NCBI RefSeq assembly: GCF_030542965.1
Contig: NZ_JAUAOA010000004.1
Location: forward strand, 1 to 64,000
Source of the DNA: Azotosporobacter soli
GTDB lineage: Bacteria; Bacillota; Negativicutes; SG130
Reading direction: 5' to 3'
DNA: 64,000 nucleotides
The translations under genes were made by a program, and so were the position numbers. Below are positions 11,713 through 14,247 of this stretch, piece by piece; the first letter of the stretch is position 1, and each line of letters opens with the position of its first letter. A model generated the notes under the pieces. The model was not told where the DNA came from, searched no databases, and worked only from the letters and a program-made list of their open reading frames with translations.

Positions 11713-12585
11713 CTAGCGAGGCAGCTGGGCCTGCTGACGTAGGCGTGCGATGCGCTCCTGCGTCGCGGGATGCGTACTGAAGAGGCTTAAGAACCATTGG
11801 CCGCCGCCGCTGAACGGGTTGATGATGAACATATGCGCGGTCGATGGCGAAGCATTCGGCATGACCCGGTGCTTGGCGTAGTATTCGATCTTTTCCAACG
11901 CACTGGCCAAAGCCAGCGGGTTGCCGCAGATCTGGCCGCCGCTTTCATCGGCGACGTATTCGCGCGAACGGGAAATGCCCATTTGGATCAAGGTCGCGGC
12001 AATCGGCGCTAGGATGATCATGAACAGGCTGCCGATCAGGCCGCTGCCGCCGCTTTCGTCATCGTCGCTGCTGCGGCCAAGACCGCCGAACATCGCGGCC
12101 CACTGCGCCATATGCGCCATATAAGTGATGACGCCGGCCATTGCAGCGGCGACCGTGCTGATCAACGTGTCGCGGTGTTTGATATGCGCCAGCTCATGCG
12201 CGATGACGCCGGATAATTCATCCGGGCTCAGTGCCTGCATGATGCCGGTGGTTACCGCAACCACGCCGTGCTCCGGATTGCGTCCGGTGGCAAAAGCGTT
12301 GGGCGACGGATCCTGCATGATGTAGACGCGCGGCATAGGCAAGCTGGCCCGTGCGGCCAGGTTCTGCACCATGCGGTGCAAATCGGGCGCTTCTTGGGCT
12401 GTTACCTCTTGGGCATTATACATGCTCAGGACGATGCGGTCACTGAACCAATAGGAGCCAAGATTCATCGCGAGCGACATAATCAGCATCAGCAGCAGTC
12501 CGCCTTTGCCGCCGAAGCTTGCGCCGAGCAGGAGCATAAAACCGGTCAAAGCGGCCATCAAGACGGTCGTTTTTAAATTGTTCAT
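11713..12585 (-). CDS. htpX: Zinc metalloprotease HtpX (M48 family)
   Basis: Membrane-bound protease of the M48 family that helps remove misfolded membrane proteins. 290 residues; two hydrophobic helices at the N-terminus, then the zinc site HELAHIKHRD with the third ligand in the SREYVADESGG segment. Another hydrophobic pair lies after the active site. GGAGG precedes the ATG by seven bases. The gene lies directly downstream, on the same strand, of a manganese riboswitch with a built-in terminator. That is an unusual and interesting regulatory link for this protease. Confidence 0.95.
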   Translation of the reverse strand: MNNLKTTVLMAALTGFMLLLGASFGGKGGLLLMLIMSLAMNLGSYWFSDRIVLSMYNAQEVTAQEAPDLHRMVQNLAARASLPMPRVYIMQDPSPNAFATGRNPEHGVVAVTTGIMQALSPDELSGVIAHELAHIKHRDTLISTVAAAMAGVITYMAHMAQWAAMFGGLGRSSDDDESGGSGLIGSLFMIILAPIAATLIQMGISRSREYVADESGGQICGNPLALASALEKIEYYAKHRVMPNASPSTAHMFIINPFSGGGQWFLSLFSTHPATQERIARLRQQAQLPR

Positions 12586-12620
12586 CGTAATTCCTCCCTA
12601 CTATTGTGTTGGATGATATG

Positions 12621-12745
12621 AAAAGACCTCGCCCCATCGGAATGAGACAAGGTCTGGCTTGCAATGGTTCGCTTCATTGCCGATACCGCCGGGTTTCCCG
12701 TATTGACGACAGGTATCGTACAGCTACTCCCCTTGTGGGGAAATA
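12621..12745 (-). promoter_or_regulatory. yybP-ykoY manganese riboswitch upstream of htpX
   Basis: Read on the minus strand, the segment has the hallmarks of the yybP-ykoY aptamer: ACAAGGGGAGTAGC at the 5' side, CGTCAATACG, the GAAACCCGGCGG core, then GCCAGACCTTG. It ends in a 12-base stem with G-U pairs (AGACCTTGTCTC with GGGGCGAGGTCT) followed by TTTT, a terminator. ACAAGG of the aptamer can pair with CCTTGT of the terminator's left arm, so the folded aptamer and the terminator exclude each other. That predicts read-through when Mn2+ is bound. The class is known to sense Mn2+; the mechanism here is inference from pairing. Confidence 0.9.
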
Positions 12746-12758
12746 TGTATTTGGCTAT

Positions 12759-12787
12759 ATGATAGCATGAACGATAAATACGGTCAA
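12759..12787 (-). promoter_or_regulatory. Promoter of the riboswitch-htpX transcript
   Basis: On the minus strand TTGACC and TATCAT are separated by 17 bases (complement of 12782-12787 and 12759-12764). Transcription would start just before the riboswitch aptamer. Confidence 0.7.
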
Positions 12788-12906: not shown

Positions 12907-14247
12907 TTGGACAGTAGTGACATAATAATCATCGAAATAATGATCTTATTTGCGTTGATTGTTGCCAACGGTGTTTTTGCGATGACCGAGCTGGCCTTGG
13001 TTTCGGCGCGGACGACAAAACTGGCGCAATTGGCGGACGAGGGCGATAAGGCCGCGCGACTGGCCTTGCGTCTGGCGGAAGAACCGACGGAACTGTTTGC
13101 AGCCGTGCAGGTCGGCATTACGCTGATCGGCATTGTCACCGGCGCGTTCGGCGGCGCAACATTGACCGGAGTTCTGGCGGAAAATCTGCGGATCATACCG
13201 GCTATCGCTCCTTACAGCCAGTGGCTGTCTTTTATTATTGTAATCAGCGCCATAACGTATGCCTCATTGATTTTTGGCGAGTTGCTGCCGAAAAAGATAG
13301 CGGTGAATCATGCGGAAGCGGTGGCTATGCGCATTGCTTATCCAATGTATTGGTTCAGCCGGAGCATTGCGCCCCTGGTGCAATTTCTTAGCGGTTCAAC
13401 AAAACTCTTCGGCCGGATGATCGGCGTGCAGGGGCGGCGTGAAGCGAGTGTGACGGAAGAAGAAGTGAAGATATTGGTTGACCAGGGCGCGGAAAGCGGC
13501 GCTCTGGAAAAATATGAACAGGACATGGTGCACCGCGTCTTTCGCTTGGACGATCTGAAAGCCAGTTCGATCATGACGCCGCGGACGCAGCTTTTGTGGC
13601 TCGACGTCACGGAGCCGCGCGAAGAGAACCTGGCAAGAATTGCAGAAAGCGGACATGCCCGCTTTCCGGTGGCGAAAGAGAGCATGGATGATTTTATCGG
13701 CATCTTGCACAGCAAGGATATCCTGGCGAAACAACTGGCCGGAGAAGACTGGGATCTCGAAAAACTGGCTCGGATGCCGCTTTGCATCCCGAAATCGATG
13801 CCGGTCTTCAAGGTGCTCGAAATGTTCAAAGAAGCGGGCATGCACGAGGCGATGGTGCTCGATGAATACGGCGGCGTGGTCGGCATGCTGACGTTGCATG
13901 ACGTACTGGAAGAAATCATCGGCGACATGCCGCAGCTCGACGAGGAAGATGATCCGCAGATCGTGCAGCGTTCTGACGGTTCATGGCTTTTGGACGGCAT
14001 GCTCGCGATCGATGATTTTAAAAAGATGTTCGGCTATAAAGAGCTGCCGGAGGAAGAACGCAACGACTATCATACGCTGGGCGGCTTCGTCATTTCCTAT
14101 TTCGGTTATATCCCGACCGCGGCGGAAGTGTTCGAATGGAATGGGTTGCGCCTCGAAGTCGTCGACATGGATCGTGCGCGCATCGATAAGATCCTGGTGA
14201 CGCAATTGCCGAAAGAAGCGGAACCCGGAGAAGAGCAGGAAGAATGA
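12907..14247 (+). CDS. HlyC/CorC-family (CNNM-type) membrane protein with CBS domains
   Basis: 446 residues. The N-terminal DUF21/CNNM membrane domain (residues about 5-200) contains hydrophobic helices and the VANGVFAMTELALVSAR start typical of the family. Two CBS motifs follow (about 220-330: MTPRTQLLWLDV, VLDEYGGVVGMLTLHDVLEEI). A C-terminal CorC_HlyC domain (about 350-435) completes it. Members are linked to Mg2+/Co2+ or other divalent-ion efflux; the ion is not evident. The start is probably a TTG, with AAGGGAG about 13 bases upstream, so the N-terminus is somewhat uncertain. A manganese riboswitch lies on the opposite strand just upstream but points the other way. Confidence 0.93.
   Translation: MDSSDIIIIEIMILFALIVANGVFAMTELALVSARTTKLAQLADEGDKAARLALRLAEEPTELFAAVQVGITLIGIVTGAFGGATLTGVLAENLRIIPAIAPYSQWLSFIIVISAITYASLIFGELLPKKIAVNHAEAVAMRIAYPMYWFSRSIAPLVQFLSGSTKLFGRMIGVQGRREASVTEEEVKILVDQGAESGALEKYEQDMVHRVFRLDDLKASSIMTPRTQLLWLDVTEPREENLARIAESGHARFPVAKESMDDFIGILHSKDILAKQLAGEDWDLEKLARMPLCIPKSMPVFKVLEMFKEAGMHEAMVLDEYGGVVGMLTLHDVLEEIIGDMPQLDEEDDPQIVQRSDGSWLLDGMLAIDDFKKMFGYKELPEEERNDYHTLGGFVISYFGYIPTAAEVFEWNGLRLEVVDMDRARIDKILVTQLPKEAEPGEEQEE

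Follow-up and report, generated by a model that had tools for sequence, protein, structure and literature searches.

Our analysis of the 64,000-nt window (the whole stretch of Azotosporobacter soli DNA analysed) indicated, with high confidence, that the leader of htpX is a genuine Mn2+ yybP-ykoY transcriptional ON switch that would induce HtpX along with manganese exporters. Sequence, covariation, a non-circular search and recurrence in relatives and other phyla give good support for an element of this class, with a terminator as its expression platform, ahead of htpX. Membership in the class is very likely, and htpX, which recurs as its target, is new among the targets of this known riboswitch class. 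Manganese riboswitches are known for exporters. In the literature searched, no report linked such a riboswitch to htpX, an earlier mention elsewhere being possible, and no paper on yybP-ykoY in Negativicutes was found; htpX goes unmentioned in the main text of a 2013 survey covering the class (PMC3766115) and in a 2022 review of manganese homeostasis (PMC9334652). The evidence comprises the leader's sequence, structure, covariation, switch strand, recurrence and gene partners, from which we infer Mn2+ binding, the direction of control and the task of HtpX.

The encoded protein matched NCBIfam NF002826 (379.3 bits, cut-off 369) and Pfam Peptidase_M48 (PF01435; 130.8 bits, cut-off 20.3), and its translation carries the HEXXH zinc site as HELAH. 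The leader occupies window positions 12787-12586 on the minus strand, with the following parts (models R1 and R2 are described below).

11713 to 12585, minus strand: htpX, zinc metalloprotease HtpX (M48 family), 290 aa, HELAH motif; from family profiles and translation
12593 to 12598, minus strand: ribosome-binding site GGGAGG; read from the sequence
12624 to 12655, minus strand: intrinsic terminator, 14 pairs and a 4-nt loop, then TTTTC; -19.8 kcal/mol alone
12645 to 12738, minus strand: yybP-ykoY (Mn2+) riboswitch aptamer, very likely; from models R1 and R2
12647 to 12652, minus strand: P1.1 3' strand CCTTGT, common to the terminator; from leader sequence and folding
12661 to 12680, minus strand: helix P4, GCAATG...CATTGC; from sequence, fold and aligned aptamers
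12704 to 12709, minus strand: loop L3 motif TCGTCA, last A at 12704; this A invariant in 24/24
12723 to 12732, minus strand: loop L1 motif GGGGAGTAGC; invariant in 24/24 aligned aptamers
12731 to 12736, minus strand: P1.1 5' strand ACAAGG; from leader sequence and aligned aptamers
12759 to 12787, minus strand: promoter-like site TTGACC-17-TATCAT, second hexamer preceded by TG; consensus match only

The aptamer stretch (minus strand, 12738-12645) reads ACAAGGGGAGUAGC...GUCGUCAAUACGG...CCGGC...GCAAGCCAGACCUUGU, includes the class L1 motif GGGGAGUAGC at 12732-12723, and contains helices P1.1, P1.2, P3.1 and P3.2 together with the P4 hairpin. Folding of the whole leader gave a z-score of -5.17, and none of 200 shuffles folded equally well. 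In the available text of PMC6754395, the Mn-coordinating adenosine is A41 in L. lactis and A48 in X. oryzae, within the motifs UCA41 and ACA48, to which A12704 would correspond. The L1 and L3 motifs are 13 nt apart, too close to accommodate helix P2, so the window leader appears as a three-way junction, whereas the crystallised yybP-ykoY element is a four-way junction with P2. E. coli alx has 15 nt at the same place, so P2 seems non-defining for the class; its absence was rejected as a peculiarity of the window copy, since most leaders here are similarly short-spaced. At 12743-12726, an upstream hairpin (UUCCCC/GGGGAG, predicted fold) would tie up L1 together with the 5' strand of P1; it competes with L1 in the window copy and has no counterpart in the other leaders that were read by eye. 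Divergent from the htpX leader (12907-14247, plus strand) lies a CNNM/CorC-type transporter gene (Pfam CNNM, CBS, CorC_HlyC), whose related proteins bear on Mg/Mn balance according to the portion of PMC9334652 available.

The P1 3' strand CCTTGT pairs with ACAAGG as P1 and is also part of the 5' arm of the terminator stem. A hairpin that re-uses this strand and is followed by a T-run was counted in 19 of 24 htpX leaders (among which L148/L046, L152/L088 and L155/L034 are duplicate places) and at 87 of the 123 remaining sites, while shuffles pooled over all sites gave 112 of 2940; the five uncounted htpX leaders still show a hairpin on visual inspection, one that has fewer T after it or a long loop. 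The P1.1-versus-terminator mechanism has been published for the L. lactis yoaB ON switch, in which Mn2+ holds P1.1 and the terminator is prevented (PMC11087558, as excerpted). This system resembles the window leader in its L1 and L3 motifs and in a P1.1 3' strand common to the terminator (available portions of PMC11087558 and PMC6754395), and differs in its target, an exporter there and a membrane protease here. By the same route, Mn2+ bound between L1 and L3 would hold P1.1 (ACAAGG/CCUUGU) and block the terminator so that htpX is read, while in its absence the P1.1 3' strand would go into the terminator and transcription would end before htpX. With P1.1 forced, the predicted fold was -34.8 kcal/mol versus -53.2 kcal/mol for the terminator fold, which is therefore favoured by about 18 kcal/mol without ligand; on these folding energies, switching would have to be kinetic. 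The terminator in the window is trailed by only four U.

When the leader was used as a DNA query against 60 genomes of its class (Negativicutes), 19 gave matches. The 26 loci listed represent 24 distinct places; among these loci the gene behind the leader was TerC or HtpX wherever one was in view (none was at L011). The alignment held 24 aptamers (the identical L020 omitted, L034 added), and its structure of 25 pairs was written by hand after the known architecture. In it, 91.4% of cells were paired and 13 pairs had changed on both sides, with a covariation score of 0.342 vs 0.173 in shuffled alignments (0 of 500 reached 0.342), while slid-partner controls paired at most 44.8%. L1 did not vary, and neither did the L3 adenosine. 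P1.2 and the inner four pairs of P1.1 give no covariation because they do not vary; RNAalifold unaided recovered P1.1, P1.2 and most of P3.1. A separate alignment of htpX leaders only (21 sites, 19 distinct rows, fitted to the model) yielded 96.8% pairing, 16 pairs changed on both sides and a score of 0.561 vs 0.209 shuffled (0 of 500 reached 0.561). In the more distant htpX leaders, the P1.1 core reads AAAGG/CCUUU.

Two model searches extended this observation. Model R1, with the window leader in its training set and E. coli outside it, scored the window aptamer at 84.5 bits (as a training member), E. coli alx at 38.3 bits and E. coli mntP weakly at 14.4 bits (E 0.74). Model R2 was built from 16 TerC leaders only, which makes its test on htpX leaders non-circular; it scored the window leader at 86.4 bits (E 7.8e-23), found an htpX leader in all 20 of the htpX sources given, the window included, and found alx at 28.6 bits (E 1.1e-5), with mntP not found. 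The window leader resembles alx, which both models find and which has a similar L1-L3 spacing, and is unlike mntP, which R1 barely finds and R2 misses; the targets of both E. coli elements are exporters, unlike htpX.

The first-pass annotation had described an aptamer, a terminator and a mutually exclusive ACAAGG/CCTTGT pairing before htpX, and this description stood on covariation, the R2 search and recurrence, whereas the Rfam yybP-ykoY match proposed for it did not appear. No Rfam family reached its gathering cut-off anywhere in the 64,000 nt or at ten related loci, and within 601 bases spanning the leader no match to RF00080 appeared even at E <= 10. The verified E. coli riboswitches, used as positive controls, failed likewise: RF00080 missed alx completely and scored mntP at 41.6 bits, where 45 are required. 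The Rfam silence is therefore no refutation, and Rfam was dropped as the arbiter of membership. In its current form (Rfam 15) the RF00080 Manganese model covers the class narrowly, and little can be read from a missing match; much of the class escapes it, so that counts of the regulon are probably too low. In the organism's own genome, RF00080 gave six matches, all under the cut-off (E 0.049 to 2.6), of which L005 is a TerC leader (C30) and L002 overlaps an R1 site (33.1 bits); L001, L003, L004 and L006, which R1 does not find, were set aside. Weak CRISPR-repeat, lncRNA and snoRNA matches in the leader, far below their own cut-offs, were discarded as chance.

Across the class, 117 of 380 genomes had an R1 match and 353 of them had HtpX, so most htpX genes of the class lack a detectable switch. 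The census of 140 distinct sites combined some of the class matches, drawn from those listed, with seven outside-class sites (four genomes), four leader-search sites and L002; L217 was removed as a duplicate, and L118, L123, L129 and L130 because they coincide with L159, L155, L157 and L154. Gene labels came from BLASTP to 12 reference proteins, with curated models for some only, and related genomes in all counts are non-independent observations. The first gene was TerC at 82 sites (one Alx-like), HtpX at 17, a member of the Na/Ca-exchanger family at nine, GDT1 at five, a P-type ATPase at two, a ~110-aa membrane protein at nine, a ~92-aa protein at eight and carbonic anhydrase at one, with four unclassified and three sites with none in view. 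The named targets are mostly manganese exporter families, plus one protease. At 58 TerC sites 1.9 kb or more of sequence could be seen, and 34 of these had htpX farther downstream on the same strand in the sequence retrieved. Positions suggest two more direct switch-htpX cases (G029:C30 and G307:C4). At 80 htpX loci, kept as nearest relatives and some with little upstream sequence, R1 matched directly upstream of htpX in eight (L034, L043, L045, L046, L049, L052, L057 and L088) and about 0.8 kb upstream in three more (L037, L051 and L096), where, read by eye, a TerC-like sequence immediately precedes htpX.

The recurrence of the pairing before htpX in relatives, which the first-pass annotation had proposed to look for, was borne out by the 17 of 140 sites that directly precede htpX and also beyond the class. 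In a Nitrospirota group (the class of the L049 genome), R1 matched in 42 of 120 genomes. Among 33 sites there (30 of the loci returned or named, 54 being listed, plus L150, L151 and L153; L147 and L148 are common to both censuses), 10 precede htpX, four of these with GDT1 (UPF0016) next in view; the remaining first genes were carbonic anhydrase (six), P-type ATPase (four) and others (13). The deltaproteobacterial site L088 also precedes htpX.

This recurrent pairing suggests that HtpX is part of the cell's response to excess manganese. As an ON switch, the leader would have HtpX made together with manganese exporters (TerC, GDT1, Na/Ca-exchanger-family proteins and P-type pumps) at high cell manganese. 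In a quality-control role, HtpX would most likely clear membrane or exported proteins mis-metalated or mis-assembled under manganese excess, and would do so in the neighbourhood of the translocon or at it, the place where TerC proteins act. The available portion of PMC10550928 describes a B. subtilis system with the same partners, TerC and HtpX: the manganese riboswitch of meeY (ykoY) accompanies a TerC protein, the TerC protein MeeF acts in the metalation of exported enzymes, and HtpX co-purifies with MeeF. The link there is physical (co-immunoprecipitation), whereas here it consists of regulation in common and gene order. The first-pass guess that HtpX helps with metal-damaged membrane proteins fits the partners TerC and GDT1 and this co-purification, with the task itself still a matter of interpretation; for its other guess, a need of HtpX for manganese, nothing turned up on either side. 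There is about an even chance that HtpX belongs to the core of a manganese-excess regulon in several phyla, where, alongside TerC and GDT1, it would see to it that proteins of the membrane and those exported carry the right metal, or would remove the ones that do not. If so, a long-studied protease of unclear task would gain a defined inducing signal. The task of HtpX becomes directly testable in any case. HtpX is tied to manganese by two partners, downstream of TerC in Negativicutes and upstream of GDT1 in the Nitrospirota group, in agreement with the HtpX-TerC contact in the published excerpt (PMC10550928).

It is possible, if somewhat doubtful, that the switch is real and HtpX is instead a manganese-homeostasis protease removing Mn/Mg importers, as YqgP-FtsH does with MgtE. 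Mn-induced proteolysis of MgtE by the rhomboid YqgP and FtsH of B. subtilis is reported in the available part of PMC7231995, the htpX leader class is common with exporters, and the CNNM/CorC gene adjoins htpX divergently; against this, this HtpX has no known substrate, and no importer family occurs among the classified first genes of the 140 sites (four being unclassified). The YqgP-FtsH system, as far as that source extends, is alike in setting a membrane protease against manganese stress and differs in that manganese acts via the protease domain rather than mRNA and the protease belongs to another family. A use of Mn2+ as cofactor, or metalation of HtpX via TerC, so that the protease is made when manganese is available, is unlikely. 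It draws on the 34 of 58 TerC sites followed by htpX and on the B. subtilis co-purification excerpted from PMC10550928, but family models call HtpX a zinc metalloprotease, and an excess-sensing riboswitch would be an odd means of meeting a cofactor need.

That the element before htpX is vestigial or now answers to another ligand is very improbable: the missing Rfam match and the lack of room for P2 are consistent with it, but L1 and the adenosine of L3 are invariant in 24/24, the helices still covary among htpX leaders, and a TerC-only model finds them. A protein-bound or other attenuator with a chance likeness to a riboswitch, for which the missing Rfam match alone speaks, is exceedingly improbable given 86.4 bits (E 7.8e-23) from a model blind to the window leader and an element common with known manganese exporter families.

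The organism's own genome carries four copies of the element, situated before htpX, before TerC (C30), before a pair of small proteins (C28) of which the first has ~92 aa and, with a weaker score (33.1 bits), before a Na/Ca-exchanger-family gene (C3). R1 switches precede the ~92-aa protein, which has no Pfam match, at L146 (own genome, C28:2172-2266), L169, L164, L190, L191, L168, L170 and L171, followed at some loci by a small protein with a DUF2076 match under cut-off; these two genes are possible unrecognised manganese genes. Switches also precede the ~110-aa membrane protein, likewise without a Pfam match, at L178, L174, L187, L186, L180, L181, L184, L185 and L243. In the Nitrospirota group, a switch precedes beta-carbonic anhydrase at L151, L262, L265, L272, L273 and L278, and genome G380 carries three switches within 7 kb, before htpX, a P-type ATPase and carbonic anhydrase.
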